From positions 1,101,148 to 1,165,147 of the forward strand of contig NW_004450582.1 of assembly GCF_000321225.1 (NCBI RefSeq): a stretch of DNA of 64,000 nt. The letters run 5' to 3'. A program made the translations under genes and the position numbers. Numbering within the stretch: position 1 is the first letter of the stretch; each line of letters begins with the position of its first letter. The notes beneath the pieces are model-generated. The model was not told the DNA's origin. It searched no databases and saw nothing but the letters and a program-made list of their open reading frames with translations. Below, one piece after another: positions 6,755 through 57,439 of the stretch. Source of the DNA: Odobenus rosmarus divergens. Taxonomy: Eukaryota > Chordata > Mammalia > Carnivora > Odobenidae.

Positions 6755-6954
6755 GGGGCGCCTGGGTGGCTCAGTTGGTTAAGCGTCTGCCTTAGGTCAT
6801 GATCTCAGGGTTCCGGGATGGGGCCCCGCCTCAGGCTCCCTGCTCAGCGGGGAGTCTTCTTCTCCCACTTCCTCTACTCTTCCCTCCCTCACCAGCCCCT
6901 CTGCTCGTGCTTTCTCTCTCTCTCAAATAAATAAATAAAATCTTAAAAAAAAAA
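6755..6954 (+). mobile_element. CanSINE with a small internal deletion
   Basis: The head ggggcgcctgggtggctcag is intact, but ctgccttaggtcatgatc lacks the usual cggctc stretch, so about nine bases are missing between the A and B boxes. Short flanks aaaacag lie at 6745-6751 and 6955-6961. Confidence 0.93.
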
Positions 6955-14262: not shown

Positions 14263-14276
14263 TCTAGATGAATCTT

Positions 14277-14500
14277 CTTTTAAAGATTTTATTTATTTAC
14301 TTACTTATTTATTTATTTATTTAGAGAGTGCAAGCAGGGGAGGGGCAGAGGGAGAGGGAGAGAATCTCAAGCAGACTCCGTGCTGAGTGCAGAGCCTGTC
14401 CCAGGGGTCGATCTCAGGACCCTGAGATCATGACCTGAACCGAGACCCGAACTGAAATCAAGAGTGGGCCACTTAACTGACTGTGCCACCCAGGCACCCT
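14277..14500 (-). mobile_element. CanSINE, older long subfamily
   Basis: A perfect 14-bp duplication, tctagatgaatctt, flanks it at 14263-14276 and 14501-14514. The body includes the gaaatcaagagtgggccac block shared with other older copies. Confidence 0.95.
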
Positions 14501-23778: not shown

Positions 23779-23789
23779 TGTGAAAGATC

Positions 23790-23955
23790 CTTTTTTTAAA
23801 AAAGATTTTATTTATTTATTTGAGAGAGAGAGAGAGCACAAACTGGGGAGTGGGCAAAGAGAGAGGGAGAAGCAGACTCCTCACTGAGCAGGGAACCCAA
23901 TGTGGGGCTCGATCCCAGGACCCTGCGATCATGACCTGAGCCACCCAGGCACTCC
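23790..23955 (-). mobile_element. CanSINE with a head-proximal deletion
   Basis: gatcatgacctgagccaccc joins the mid region directly to the head, removing about 27 bases, including the gccgaaggcagacgctta stretch with the A box. The deletion is bounded by ctgagc repeats in the normal element. Approximate flanks are tgtgaaagatc (23779-23789) and tgtgaaaaatc (23956-23966). Confidence 0.92.
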
Positions 23956-27491: not shown

Positions 27492-27707
27492 AAAATACAA
27501 TAATATACTATTTTACCACCATCACACTGGCAAAAATTTGAAATGATTGATAATTCCAAGTGATGGCCAAGGTGGGAGGAATTCATATTCTCAAATTCTG
27601 TCAGCAAGGATGAAAATTGATACAAATGCTTTGGAAATTAGCCTCGACTATACTTAAAGTGATCATAACCTCTAACCCAGAGACTTGCACCATTAAATAT
27701 ATACTTT

Positions 27708-27899
27708 TTTTTTAAAGATTTTATTTATTTGAGAGAGAGAGAGAGCACAAGCTGGGGAGTGGGCAAAGAGAGAGGGAGAAGCAGACTCCTCACTGAGCAG
27801 GGAGCCCGATGCGGGACTCAGTCCCGGGATCCTGGGTACACGGTTTCATTTTGCAGTGATAAAGGCAAACGCTTAACGACTGAGCCACCCAGGCGCCCC
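27708..27899 (-). mobile_element. chimeric CanSINE A with an L1-like internal segment
   Basis: Read on its own strand, it starts with a normal head and A-box region up to gcgtttgcctt. At 27833-27860 it then carries 28 bases unlike any other CanSINE here except the copy at 28589. It returns to normal SINE sequence at the aggatcc before the B box. The 28 bases match 29025-29052 of a nearby L1 fragment with one mismatch. Its 3' body (actccccagcttgtgctc) matches the subfamily of the copy at 23790, which has the ordinary segment. The duplication aaatatatacttt lies at 27695-27707 and 27900-27912. Confidence 0.95.
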
Positions 27900-28044
27900 A
27901 AATATATACTTTCTGATAAACATTTGTAAACATGCCCATTAGAAGCATGTTGAAAGAATGTTTGTTCCAGTATTTTTTATAGTAGTAAAAGTTTGGAAAC
28001 AACTTAAATTTTTATCGTTGGAACATTGGATAAATTAATTGTGC

Positions 28045-28241
28045 ATTTTTTTTCAAAGATTTTATTTATTTACCTGAGAGAGAGAGAATGGGAGATAGAG
28101 GGCACAAGAGGGAAGAGGATTAGAGGGAGAAGCAGACTCCCCGCCGAGCAGGGAGCCCGATGCGGGACTCGATCCCGGGACTCCAGGATCATGACCCGAG
28201 CCGAAGGCAGTCGCCCAACCAACTGAGCCACCCAGGCGCCC
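28045..28241 (-). mobile_element. CanSINE
   Basis: Duplication taattgtgc at 28036-28044 and 28242-28250. It lies between the two chimeric CanSINEs but has the ordinary internal segment (caggatcatgacccgagccg). Confidence 0.95.
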
Positions 28242-28588
28242 TAATTGTGCTATTTTAACACAGTGGAAGACTATATAGAATTTAAATGGATGAATTGTCT
28301 ACATATGTATATATGGAAACAGTTTTACATTTTAAACACCATGTTATGTGTAAAAAAGCAGGCTTTGAAAGCTATTTTTATTATATCATGCATGTAAAAT
28401 GTCCAAAACATTCAAAACAGATATTTAATTTATGGATATACACATAAGTAGAAAAGGATCAAATATGCATGGGAATGATGCACACCAACGTTATGACAGT
28501 GGCTATTTCTCAGCAAGGTGGCAAACGTGAAGTCCAGAGATTTCAACTTATTTTGTAGCCTTTTGTTTCTTAAAAAAAATTTGGCACA

Positions 28589-28780
28589 GGGACGCCTGGG
28601 TGGCTTAGTCAGTTAAGCGTCTGCCTTCATCACTCCAAAATGAACCCGTGTACCCAGGATCCTGGGATTGAGTCCCGCATCGGGCTCCTTGCTCAGCAGG
28701 AAGCCTGCTTCTCCCTCTGTCTGCTGCTCCCCCTGCTTGTGCTCTCTCTCTCTGACAAATAAATAAATAAAACATTTTTA
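28589..28780 (+). mobile_element. chimeric CanSINE B with an L1-like internal segment
   Basis: The head and A-box region are normal up to gcgtctgccttc. Bases 28629-28656 are the same L1-like 28-mer as in the copy at 27708, with one different mismatch. Normal SINE sequence resumes at aggatcctgggattgagtcc, keeping the B box. The 3' body (gctgctccccctgcttgtgc) is a different subfamily from copy A. The flanking duplication is imperfect (aaaaatttggcaca before, aaaaatttagtgcca after). Confidence 0.95.
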
Positions 28781-28894
28781 AAAAATTTAGTGCCAAAATA
28801 TCCAAACAACATATTTTGAAATCTTGAAGGTATGTTTGTGGGTCTACTACATACTATGTATAATATGCAGGGCTTTTTTCATTCTATATATTTT

Positions 28895-29700
28895 CTAACA
28901 GTTTTACTGAAATATAATTTGCATACCATATATATTCATCGATTGAAATTATACAATTCAATGATTTTTTAGTATATTCACAGAGTTGCATAACTATAAC
29001 TATAATCAATTCTAGAAAGTTTTCATCACTCCAAAATGAAACCGTGTACCCATTAGCTGTCATTAGCTGTCATTCCTCCCTTCCTCCCAACCCCCCATTG
29101 CCCAAGGCAAGCACTAATCTCCATCTTGTCTCTGTAGATAATTTGCCTATTCTGTACGTTTCACATAAGTGGAATTATACAATATGTGTTCTTTTGTGGT
29201 TAGTTTCTTTCACTTAGCATCATGTTTCCAAGGTTCATCTGTGTTGTAGCATGGATCAGTCCTGCATTTCTTTTTACGGCCAAATACTATTCTATTGTTT
29301 GGGCATATCATAATTTTTTTATTCATTCATCAGTTGTGGATGTTTGTAATGTTTCCACTTTTTGACCACTGTGAGTAATGCTGCTCTAAGCATCTGTGTA
29401 CAAGTTCTTCTTTGAACATATGTTCACATTATCTGGAAATGACGGCTGGGTCATCTGTTAACTCTGGATGCCACATTTTGAGGAACTGCCAAACTGCTTT
29501 CCAGAGCAGCTGCATCACTGTGCATTCTCACAAGTGATGGGTGAGGATTCCCATTTCTTCACATCCTCCCCAACATTTGCTATCATCTTTAGTTTTGAAT
29601 ATAGCCACTCTATAGGGTGTGAAGTGGAAGCTCACTGTGGTTCCAATTTGCGTTTCTCTAATGGCTAATGATATTGAGCATCTTTTCATGTGTTTATCAT
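28895..29700 (-). mobile_element. old L1M 3'-region fragment, antisense
   Basis: About 800 bp of L1 3' sequence read in reverse: ttttactgaaatataatttg, tcatcactccaaaatg, gtggaattatacaatatgtg, tttcacttagcatcatg, ttttccactttttgaccact-like blocks, ccaaactgctttccagagc and tgatattgagcatcttttc. Bases 29025-29052 match the segment found in the two chimeric CanSINEs. A 10-bp tandem duplication, cattagctgt, follows at 29051-29070. Confidence 0.85.
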
Positions 29701-38240: not shown

Positions 38241-38447
38241 TTTTTTTTTAAATTTATTTATCTGAGAGAGAGAGAGAGTGAACATGTGCTCCTGAGCACA
38301 AGCAAGGGGAGGGGCAGAGGAAGAGGGAGAAGCAGACTCCCTGCTGTGCAGGGAGCCTTGTGCAATGCGGGGCTTGATTCCATGACCCTGAGACTATGAC
38401 CTGAGCTGAAGGCAGATACTTAACCGACTGAGCCACCCAGGTGCCCC
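38241..38447 (-). mobile_element. CanSINE, left of a microsatellite
   Basis: A minus-strand older-type copy with head gagccacccaggtgcccc. The left flank aagttcatttctttt (38228-38242) recurs as aaattcatttctttt at 38840-38854, to the right of the second SINE. The two copies and the repeat between them therefore form one compound block. Confidence 0.92.
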
Positions 38448-38455
38448 AAGCTCTT

Positions 38456-38466
38456 TTTCTTTCTTT

Positions 38467-38543
<77 letters not shown>

Positions 38544-38643
38544 TTTCTTTCTTTTTTCTTTCTTTCTTTCTTTCTTTTTCTTTCTTTCTTTCTTCCTTCC
38601 TTCCTTCCTTCCTTCCTTTTTCTTTCTTTCTTTCTTTCTTTTC
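38456..38643. repeat. long CTTT microsatellite
   Basis: About 190 bp of (CTTT)n with ttcc and ttttt interruptions, running directly into the T-rich tail of the minus-strand CanSINE at 38644. It is best explained as that element's expanded A-rich tail. The Ser/Phe/Leu open frame across it is not a gene. Confidence 0.97.
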
Positions 38644-38817
38644 TTTTTTGAAGATTTTATTTATTTGAGAGTGAGAGAGAGAGTAAGGGGAGTGGGAGAG
38701 GAAGAGGGAGGCTCCCCGCTAAGCAGGGAGCCCAACGAGGGGCTCCATCCCAGGACCCTGGGATCATGACCTGAGCCAAAGGCAGATGCTTAATCCACTA
38801 AGCCACCCAGGCGCCCC
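38644..38817 (-). mobile_element. CanSINE, right of a microsatellite
   Basis: A complete head (agccacccaggcgcccc) and shortened body. Beyond the head, a C-rich stretch (about 38816-38839) contains gacgcccc, which looks like a second SINE head remnant. Confidence 0.93.
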
Positions 38818-43509: not shown

Positions 43510-43540
<31 letters not shown>

Positions 43541-43561
43541 AATCTTAAAAAAAAAAAAAAA
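43338..43561 (+). mobile_element. CanSINE, first of a same-target pair
   Basis: The head reads ggggcgtctgagtggctcag and the tail has a long (AAAT)n run. The duplication aagagttaggagaaga lies at 43322-43337 and 43561-43576. Confidence 0.95.
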
Positions 43562-43576
43562 AGAGTTAGGAGAAGA

Positions 43577-43760
43577 GGGCGCCTGGGTGGCTCAGTTGGT
43601 TAAGCGACTGGTCTTGATCCCGGAGTCCTGGGATCGAGTCCCACATCGGGCTCCCGGCTCAGCGGGGACCCTGCTTCTCCCTCTGACCCTCTCCCCTCTC
43701 ATGCTGTTTCTCTCTCTCTCTCAAATAAATAAATAAATAAAATCTTTAAAAAAAAATCTT
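43577..43760 (+). mobile_element. CanSINE, second of a same-target pair, internal deletion
   Basis: It starts right after the second aagagttaggagaaga, and ttaggagaaga appears a third time at about 43761-43771. The interval between gcgactg and tgatcccgg is shortened by about a dozen bases. Confidence 0.94.
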
Positions 43761-52316: not shown

Positions 52317-52368
52317 GTCTACAAATTCTTTGAAATGTATTAAGTATGCTGGTTAATTTATGTAAATA

Positions 52369-52580
52369 TTTTTTTTTTTTAGATTTATTTATTTGAGAGA
52401 GTGTGCGCCTGCATGGGGGGGAGTGGGGGAGGGGCAGAGGGAGAGGGAGAGGAGGAGAATCCCAAGCAGACTCCCTGTTGAGCACAGAGCCCGACAAGGG
52501 GCTGGATATCACAACCCTGAGACCACCCCAGCAGAAACCAAGATTCAGAAGCTTGACCAACTGAGCCACTCAGGTGCCCC
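52369..52580 (-). mobile_element. CanSINE, older and diverged
   Basis: The head gagccactcaggtgcccc and the cagcagaaaccaagattcag block are recognisable. The flanking duplication is too decayed to define. Confidence 0.9.
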
Positions 52581-54204: not shown

Positions 54205-55600
54205 TACAAGATTCTTTTCTAAGCCTGTTTTATATAATTTTATTAGACTTAAGTGGAAACAAAGAAGCCAAGTTCATTAACTTCACAGATAACTATAAGT
54301 TAAAAGTGATGACTAATAAGATTTCAAAATCTCAAATTATGTCTTAAAACCAGATGAAATTTAATATGGATCAAAGGCAAAAATTGGGTTTAAACATGTA
54401 GAATTATAGAAACATAGACTATGTAAGGTGGAAGCTATGGTTTAATTGTAGTCCATGTAAAATAGACTTGGATGTTTTATTCGACTCTAAGTAATACATT
54501 TGCTAAAAGAAAAACCTAACACAAGTTTGGGATACCTTACTGACAGGGTATGCTTTGTTCAAGGGGCTACTGATCATTTTTTAACAAAGTTCTTAGCCCA
54601 CTGTATTTGAATGTTGTGTTCTCTTTTGAGTGCACAATTTAAGAAGGAAAAGGAAAAGTTGAAGAACATGCAAAGCAGGGTAAAAAGTGTGGTTATGACA
54701 GCTCACCATTCCATTTGACAAATAAAAGGACCTAAAAATTTTGAAAAATAGAAAAATATTAGATATTCTGATAGTTACTTAGTAGTTTGGTTCAAATATT
54801 TCAAGGCCTGCAATGTCTGTAAAGAGTGAGATTAATTAATTCCTAGGGGTCAGAATCAGCACCAGTGGTGTTAAGGGAAGGTGAATTGATGTTCACAAGG
54901 CAAATGATTATAGACATTTTAAGCAGACCTGGGCTTTAATTCTGGCATCAGTATTGGCTGTGGCAAAAGAGATGATACTTCTGAGCTTTACTTCCCTGTT
55001 GAATAGGGATAATAAGGCCTATCTCATTTTAAGGATTAGAAATAATAAAAATTGCTTAGTTCCTGACATAGGTAAATTGAATAATCATGATTATACATAA
55101 TACCAATAAATATAAAGATTTCCAACATTGTAAAAGTTTAAGAGGATGATGGTATGATGGAAATATTGCAGAGGATTTCTACTTAAGCTAGGGGACTGGA
55201 CTTAACATCTATTTGAACTTTTAGCATAATGGTTTCCCCTGACTGCGCTGTGCTTCTCCTTGTCTCACAAAGCAAGCAGGTCCACTCTGTTTTAACCAAG
55301 TTTATCTTCGTTGATTTCTGAGAGTCAATTGCCTTAAAAGAAGTTAGAACAGAAAGGGGGCATAGCTACGACCAATGAATGTTTTAAGAGTAGGAAAATA
55401 CAACGCTCGAAGACTACAGGGCTTCTCATTTAGTGGCTCAGTGAGCTACTCATGGAGCTACTCATTACGAGGGTTGGTTAAGTTACGAGAGGGATTAAGT
55501 GAAAGAATCTCCACTACTTCAAACCACATCAGGCTCTTGGCAAGAACTACGTGAAGAATGGGATCTAAGGCAGGCTTGCGAAGCGGGACTGGGCTTGCTG
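54205..55600. other. unassigned sequence upstream of the CpG island
   Basis: AT-rich and CanSINE-free, containing one MIR. A short direct repeat, gagctactcat, occurs twice near 55442-55468. G+C rises from about 55560. Confidence 0.45.
54915..55092 (+). mobile_element. MIR SINE
   Basis: cagacctgggctttaattct, tgagctttacttccctgttg, aatagggataataaggccta and attgcttagttcctgacata are in MIR order. Confidence 0.8.
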
Positions 55601-56114
55601 GCTGGAGCTAAGGACCGCACGGAGGCCCTTGGGTGCCACCAGTTGATGGCATGAATAGAAACAAAAAAGAGGAAAGAGACAAAAGGGGGAAAATAGGTGC
55701 CAGGGCCGCGAGAAGGAAGACGAAGGTTGGCGGGTGGTTGGGCGCGGCGAGCTTTCTGCGCGCGAGTTGTGCGCCAGGACCCGGGGCGCTGTAACTGGGC
55801 GCTCCTATGGCCAGGGGCATCAACCCTTGCCCGGGGGCGAACCTCTCCACACGCTCTGTTCTCCCTCCCGCGTCTCCCAGCTGCTAGTCGGTCCTGCTAG
55901 GGCACTTCTCGAAACCTGTCCGCAGCTAGGAACCTTGGCCCGACTTTGATGGCCTCGATAACTTAGCGCGGCACCCTGACCTCTTTTCTCCCGCCCCTCT
56001 CCCGCCCACCCGGCCCCACCACCCAGTGCACCTCCCGCGCTGGGGTCGACCAGATACTCTGCGGCTCGGCTGCCGGCAAGACCCGGAGACTGGAGCCGGC
56101 TCGGACCGAGCCGG

Positions 56115-56128
56115 GCGCGCGCGCGCGC
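56115..56128. repeat. (GC)7 alternating tract
   Basis: A pure gcgcgc run in the island core. Alternating GC is a classic potential Z-DNA sequence, here just upstream of the likely transcribed region. Confidence 0.9.
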
Positions 56129-56155
56129 CTTCTCACTCGCTCCTAGCAGGGGTAG

Positions 56156-56167
56156 TGGGCATGCGCG
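56156..56167 (+). promoter_or_regulatory. NRF1-like binding site
   Basis: tgggcatgcgcg matches the palindromic NRF1 consensus (YGCGCAYGCGCR) at all but one position. NRF1 sites are common in TATA-less CpG-island promoters. Confidence 0.55.
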
Positions 56168-56199
56168 GCGCGCGGCTGGCTTTGGCGGCGAGCGGGTGA
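56161..56199 (+). other. possible 12-codon upstream ORF
   Basis: An ATG at 56161 opens MRGARLALAASG and stops at 56197-56199. If transcription starts to its left, this would be a short upstream ORF in the leader of the predicted exon 1. The start overlaps the NRF1-like site, so transcription may equally start downstream. Confidence 0.25.
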
Positions 56200-56690
56200 G
56201 CGGGCGGGCGGCTCCAGACTTCACAGGCGGCGGCGGGCGCGGCGGTCTTGCCCAGCGCGAGGTCGGCGCTGTGCTCGCCCCGGAGATCGCTGCTCTCCAG
56301 CCGGGCGCAGACGGCGGCTTTGCGGCTCGCGGAGGATTGGAAGGGCGTGGTCCAGGTCGGGGGCTTTCTCCTGGGCGCCTCCGGGGAAAGCCACGGCCCC
56401 GAGGGCGGATCCGAGGTAAGAGCCCCTCGGGCGAAAGTCGCCGGCCGGGGGTCCAGCTGTTTGAACTCAGCCTCGATTTTTAAAAAATCCGCTTTTGTGT
56501 GCTTGGATGGAGCGGTGCCAGGCGCCGCGTCCGCTTTCATTCACTTTGACTGCTTTCAGCTGGTGTTGGGGGCCAGGTGTGCCGGGGCTCTGCTACCGGA
56601 GCGCGTCCGTGCGCCCGGTCGTGGGGCGCCGCGGAGCGGGTGCCGACCTTCGGCCGCCCAGCCGCCCGCCGAACCCAGGGCTCCGGGAGG

Positions 56691-57439
56691 GTGGGCACAG
56701 AAGATTATCAGTGTCCTTGTGATATTTCCTGGTAACCTGAGCTTCCGGACATACACCTGCGCTTATCTGGTCGGTGGGGCGACGTCGGAACCGGTATTCT
56801 CACAGCTTATTTTAGGCTTGGGGTTTCGAGAGCTACCCTCCCCACCCTCAAATGGAGGGGGGTCTTTTCAGATTGGTAGTTTGGGGCAAGGTCCCACCAT
56901 CGCATACCCTCTCAAATTAAGATAGCTCATTGTTTTTGAATAGTTGTCACTCCTGATTCCTGTTGACTTTCCGTTCTTAGTTTGTTCCACTTTACTCACC
57001 ATTTTACTTTTGGCAGATGGCCTTTCTGGTGTCTTTGTCAGTTAATGCCTTTGGAGTAGATTTCCCCACGTATGAAGACCCGGCTCGCTTCTCCTGGGGT
57101 CACTCTTCTTTCCTTTCAAGGACTATCTGTATGCAAAAATCTTTGCACGGATTGTTCTCTTCCTTTGCATTGTTTCTCATATCCTTATTTTCCCGTAGAC
57201 CCAGAGTACTGCTGGAATCTCTTTGGGGGTAAGACGCCTTTGGTATTAGGGTTTGAAAACCAGAGACGTCTAGGGCGGTAGAGCATTAAGAATTGGAGTT
57301 CTCCTTTACAAAATATATTTTAATGAAATGTATTACTGCTTTTCTTTTGAAGGTTTCGGTTTTTGTCTCATAAGAATAGGTAATATCTTAAGAGTTCAGG
57401 TAAAACTTGGTTTCAGATGCATATGAACAGCTTGATTTT
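56691..57439. other. predicted start of intron 1
   Basis: G+C falls back here and no repeat is recognised. It contains one pair of splice-site-like sequences described separately (57199-57228). The 71-codon frame at 57017-57232 follows a tttttggcag-like acceptor but shows no protein motif. Confidence 0.4.
57199..57228 (+). other. candidate 30-bp micro-exon
   Basis: A long pyrimidine-rich run ends in attttcccgtag at 57198, and gggg/gtaaga follows at 57228/57229. Both sites are strong by eye and bracket 30 bases (a multiple of three). No homology supports it, so chance is quite possible. Confidence 0.2.

Follow-up and report, generated by a model that had tools for sequence, protein, structure and literature searches.

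An L1-like patch common to two neighbouring, inverted CanSINEs: probable local templated insertion followed by exchange

Two CanSINEs, here called A and B, carry the same replacement of 15 nt by 24 nt in their tRNA-like heads, and the replacing sequence together with the CCCA after it agrees, at 27/28 positions in each SINE, with an adjoining fragment that we take, following the first-pass annotation, to be antisense L1, presumably from its 3′ UTR. The probable explanation is a microhomology-flanked templated insertion from this local L1 into one of the SINEs, followed by a short conversion between A and B. We favour such a local origin because the donor is adjacent, microhomology is present at both ends, none of 43 other aligned CanSINEs is patched and copy A is a mosaic. 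Support for the reading is only partial: L1 to B to A is a proposed order, and with the patch masked the tract common to A and B is significant for the pre-chosen pair only. The features concerned are collected in Table 1; the window is the whole stretch of 64,000 nucleotides (64 kb) of Odobenus rosmarus divergens that was analysed.

Table 1. Coordinates of the CanSINE copies, the patches and the presumed donor in the window
Feature	Position	Strand	Basis
CanSINE, ordinary site, 3′ body as in A	23787..23955	-	69/70 with A in 3′ body
CanSINE copy A, patched, 3′ body of the 23787 type	27708..27899	-	blastn, alignment, 13-bp target-site duplication
Part of A, to the right of the patch in SINE sense, that sides with B	27793..27836	-	masked alignment, approximate coordinates
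24-nt patch in A, then CCCA at 27833-27836	27837..27860	-	28-mer search
Unpatched ordinary CanSINE lying between A and B, in A's orientation	~28045..28241	-	blastn, alignment
CanSINE copy B, patched	28589..28785	+	blastn, alignment, target-site duplication of at least 9 bp
24-nt patch in B, then CCCA at 28653-28656	28629..28652	+	28-mer search
Presumed donor stretch in antisense L1 fragment	29025..29052	+	28-mer search, blastn

The patched copies, the patch and its donor

Copies A and B are both recognizable as CanSINEs by head and tail sequence, with an identity to a CanSINE consensus of 80.0% for A and 81.7% for B, and by their target-site duplications. That of A is a perfect 13 bp (AAATATATACTTT, 27695-27707 / 27900-27912), whereas that of B comprises at least 9 bp (AAAAAATTT) with the remainder diverged. 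The flanks of the two copies are unlike, the best flank match being 19 bases at 84%. A and B are separate insertions, inverted with respect to each other and 689 bp apart; they are 84% identical by blastn. A segment duplication carrying one chimeric SINE was rejected, as the flanks are unlike and the target-site duplications differ. The first-pass annotation had described an L1-like replacement common to these two opposite-strand elements, and both its coordinates and its description are right, apart from box B (see below); we add that an unpatched ordinary CanSINE with a 9-bp target-site duplication (TAATTGTGC) sits between them.

A search of the whole 64-kb window for the 28-mer at up to three mismatches returned three matches only, all inside 1.3 kb, and 100 shuffled sequences returned none. 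The match is exact in the L1 fragment at 29025-29052 (+), whereas A (27833-27860, minus strand) and B (28629-28656, plus strand) each agree with the L1 at 27/28 positions, their single mismatches being at different positions, as had been claimed from the sequence at first pass. Apart from A and B, the window holds no other copy of the L1 stretch. Ordinary CanSINEs have the 15 nt GGCTCAGGTCATGAT between GCCTTY and CCCAGG, where A and B have 24 nt; the strict replacement, without CCCA, corresponds to 29025-29048 of the L1. Judging by the panel of CanSINEs described below, the 15-nt site would represent the state before insertion. Homology between the L1 and B extends over 29022-29052 (30/31). 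The end of B's 28-mer lies 368 bp from the L1 stretch, in the same orientation, and that of A's lies 1164 bp away, with A inverted. The local L1 presumably has bases of its own within the 28-mer that are common to both SINEs, which would argue strongly for it as the donor; the point is given no weight here.

The earlier proposal that both SINEs have the same breakpoints, placed on microhomology with the L1, holds for the junctions themselves, for CCCA at the right junction of both A and B, and for TTC at the left junction of B; the left junction of A now reads TTT, so that only TT is in common with the L1 today. Matching junction runs of 3 and 4 bases have chance probabilities of ~0.018 and ~0.005, respectively. 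The insert is a near-copy (27/28 in each SINE) of nearby DNA with microhomology at both junctions.

The reverse event, in which a SINE overwrote the L1, is unlikely: the match to the SINEs ends at both edges of the donor stretch, and the L1 presumably continues on either side. A DNA hairpin at the donor is weak (z -0.90; 41/200 shuffles fold equally well). The L1 also contains a 10-bp tandem duplication at 29052-29074 (ATTAGCTGTC twice, then ATT), whose first base is also the last of the donor 28-mer; it may have been left by the same copying slip or by a different one.

The frequency of the patch was judged from a panel of 45 CanSINE stretches, taken from blastn hits in the window and then aligned. 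Two hits (14269-14443; 52366-52580) and one tail piece (43527-43556) were excluded, and broken copies were retained, namely 39918 with a cut 5′ end and 6755, 23787 and 43576 with deletions at or beside the patch site. At position 3 of box B the panel copies read A (GGATCGAG), a state that available passages of PMC9599045 give as caniform, so that the host is probably a caniform by this mark. Only A and B, side by side, carry the patch (2/45). Since none of the other 43 aligned copies is patched, a subfamily making up more than ~7% of the copies here is unlikely. This count bears on the alternative that A and B belong to a chimeric CanSINE subfamily, whose master would have captured the L1 stretch and whose copies would owe their different 3′ bodies to template switching between SINE RNAs or to subfamily change. 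Such an origin would account for the identical junctions and for the target-site duplications on both elements. It would also make the adjacent exact L1 match a coincidence, or else require that a daughter landed 689 bp from its parent, and landing beside the parent calls for a very large subfamily, yet no other copy in the panel is patched.

The promoter boxes bear on the same alternative. The box A region is present in both copies, as the first-pass annotation had it and as a transcribed subfamily would have it, at least for the most part; box B was likewise said to be kept, but its CpG is lost in both (GGACTGAGTCC in A and GGATTGAGTCC in B, against GGATCGAGTCC in ordinary copies), which speaks against a subfamily, although later decay is possible. 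The patch adds 9 nt to the spacing between box A and box B. Scans of the window for tRNA and Rfam families at default settings gave no matches.

Two further observations concern the remainder of the window. An open frame at 38257-38718 (-) overlaps two CanSINEs and has a Pfam DUF913 match of 22.3 bits, below the cut-off of 24.7, that is probably due to chance. A G+C-rich island at 55500-57000 (0.58-0.72 per 500-base step, compared with 0.31-0.42 nearby) is a possible promoter island; the longest of the listed open frames lie in it, on both strands, and three of them are without a Pfam match.

Mosaic structure of copy A

With the patch masked, the agreement between A and B changes along the element, from 35/39 in the head and 34/36 right of the patch to 41/64 in the 3′ body. 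The agreement of A with the SINE at 23787 runs the other way, at 27/36 right of the patch and 69/70 in the 3′ body. The contrast between segments is significant for both pairs (Fisher p 0.0006 for A-B and 0.0002 for A-23787), whereas B against 23787 gives 29/36 and 40/64 (p 0.074); these segments were picked after the alignment had been inspected. A second alignment gave the same picture, with 34/36 and 50/65 for A-B and 27/36 and 66/67 for A-23787. The boundary to the 3′ body falls near 27793-27801 in A and 28688-28696 in B. Thus A shares a tract with B while its other part has a different relative, and the first-pass statement that A's 3′ body resembles the SINE at 23787 (placed there at 23790) and that B's does not is confirmed by the figures of 69/70 and 40/64. 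Members of one subfamily would be alike across the rest of the element, and the difference between the 3′ bodies of A and B in either alignment argues against the chimeric subfamily; mosaic SINEs are common in the panel, which counts in its favour. Taken with the copy count, we disfavour the subfamily and regard it as unlikely.

Among all 45 SINEs, the change of best partner between segments is largest for A (0.194), followed by two others at 0.167, one of which is 23787. With the patch masked, all 990 pairs were compared by a run test that used 300 shuffles. A-23787 ranks 2nd (corrected P 0.073) and A-B ranks 20 of 990, the latter being equalled in 1/300 shuffles when taken as a pre-chosen pair and giving a corrected P of 0.80. 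A tract outside the patch is therefore not significant after correction, and only two of the states common to A and B outside the patch are rare elsewhere (4/43 and 6/43). Right of the patch, A and 23787 differ at 9 sites; at 3 of these 23787 has a state held by at most 4/42 others, and at 4 it is A that has a state held by at most 7/42 others. As 3 of the 9 are rare states of 23787, part of the A-23787 contrast may reflect change in 23787. From the run test and these rare states together, it follows that the case for an exchange between A and B depends chiefly on the patch, with the flank as support. Local copying with A-B conversion, as first proposed, is the best-supported reading through its adjacent donor, its microhomology, the 0/43 count and the mosaic, but the masked tract adds no significance of its own once all pairs are corrected for.

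The pair formed by A (27708-27800) and 23787-23955 is an observation in its own right. Both lie on the minus strand, 3.8 kb apart, and agree at 69/70 positions in the 3′ body, yet differ at 9/36 upstream. Their 3′ body includes TTTGCCCACTCCCCAG beside GTGAGGAGTCTGC and a 16-mer found at no other position of the window at up to two mismatches; a second exchange or a minor subfamily would account for it. The SINE at 23787 is without the head segment between two GGCTCAG repeats.

A proposed order of events

The favoured local origin can be set out as two steps, whose order, direction and polymerase are inferred. The first would have affected one ordinary CanSINE, more likely B, while it was under repair or its replication was disturbed: a growing 3′ end would have left the SINE at TTC, paired with the TTC of the adjoining L1 fragment, copied 24-28 nt from it and returned to the SINE via CCCA. 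Copying of this kind with a return at CCCA would entail the loss of 15 nt and the gain of 24. B is suggested as the first recipient because it has the same orientation as the L1 stretch and lies 368 bp from it, which is not proof. In the second step, to which the mosaic trace points, gene conversion or template switching would have given B and the inverted A a short common tract. A would have gained the patch and probably the next ~36 nt as well, whereas its 3′ body would have stayed its own. A is taken as the recipient because it loses its likeness to 23787 right of the patch, again without amounting to proof. Later point mutations would have produced the one difference from the L1 in each patch. 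No function of the patch is needed.

The exchange step could be dispensed with if the same L1 stretch had been inserted twice, independently, into A and B, the ends being guided each time by common SINE sequence and microhomology. The TTC and CCCA junction bases do occur in ordinary copies, and three ordinary CanSINEs, 23787-23955 (-), 6755-6954 (+) and 43576-43757 (+), have deletions at or beside the same spot, so that the spot may be break-prone. Two events with the same two breakpoints are nevertheless less likely than one event and one exchange, and the agreement of A and B right of the patch (34/36) would be left unexplained; we hold independent insertions to be very unlikely. An assembly or read artefact is more improbable still. 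Inverted repeats are open to misassembly, but A and B differ at 5/66 sites across the patch with its flanks, the one difference from the L1 lies at another site in each patch and each SINE has its own target-site duplication, and it is these separate changes that disfavour an artefact. Taking the L1 28-mer as the starting state, 2/84 sites have changed over the three copies (2.4%, 95% CI 0.3-8.3%). At a neutral rate of 1-2.2 per billion years and site, these differences place the patch, very roughly, at ~10-40 million years of age.

Should L1 to B to A be the true order, the 1.3-kb stretch would record two successive events: a microhomology-flanked templated insertion, and an exchange between inverted SINEs in which the insertion travels as a foreign marker and makes the limits of the exchange readable. 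An odd insert common to two SINEs thus need not mean a subfamily. A wider version, in which copying jumps have occurred repeatedly between neighbouring repeats over 0.4-4 kb (L1 to B, B to A and 23787 with A), is a doubtful extension; were it true, inverted SINE pairs would pass on scraps of non-SINE sequence and so make SINE variants in place without transposition.

Comparison with known processes

In their general build, A and B share with the CanSINE described in available passages of PMC9599045 the tRNA-like head, pyrimidine-rich stretch, AAATAAA repeats, A-tail, target-site duplications and the A at position 3 of box B, and differ from it in the 24 nt of L1 and in the lost box B CpG. Gene conversion was not found under the name 'CanSINE'. 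In the available passages of PMC9599045 it is mentioned in the reference list only, those of PMC4524476 that speak of conversion concern ZFX/ZFY in bears, and the term is absent from what was available of PMC6230240 and PMC4084570.

The second step resembles partial gene conversion between Alu elements, in which neighbouring copies of a SINE family less than 10 kb apart have a short common tract and a hybrid element results. As far as the available text of PMC8230782 goes, Alu conversion acts within ~10 kb, falls with distance and in its partial form yields hybrids, and an optimum similarity of 89-100% is quoted there. The present case differs in that the tract includes a piece of L1 and that A and B are inverted and known from one genome; the A-B identity of 84% is below the optimum and counts against conversion. 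When a break is repaired in yeast, inverted repeats at a distance of 1 kb anneal and divert the repair from gene conversion to break-induced replication (PMC6103520, available passages), which likewise counts against conversion but would itself permit template switching.

For the first step, polymerase theta end joining also produces a small deletion with a templated insert and short microhomologies. Its templates are mostly short and, in the accessible parts of PMC5068794 and PMC11541566, mostly within 20 bp of the break, whereas here 24 nt would have come from a template no closer than 368 bp. Replication template switching is for this reason a better fit than polymerase theta. Template switching of the MMBIR type would likewise take an insert from a nearby template with 2-4 bases of microhomology at its ends. 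The human survey in PMC8421209, in the part available, reports microhomology of 2-12 bp (mean 3.7) at 80% of junctions, and differs in that it concerns inverted copies within 100 bp, whereas copying into B would be direct and from 368 bp. For short-range switches in great apes, available passages of PMC7954356 give a copied length with a median of 12 and a maximum of 128. A product of the present kind, in which a small deletion goes with an insert of nearby origin and with microhomology on either side, is what template switching would leave. The component processes are all known in kind, and the locus is a tidy natural example of them in combination, not a new genetic system.
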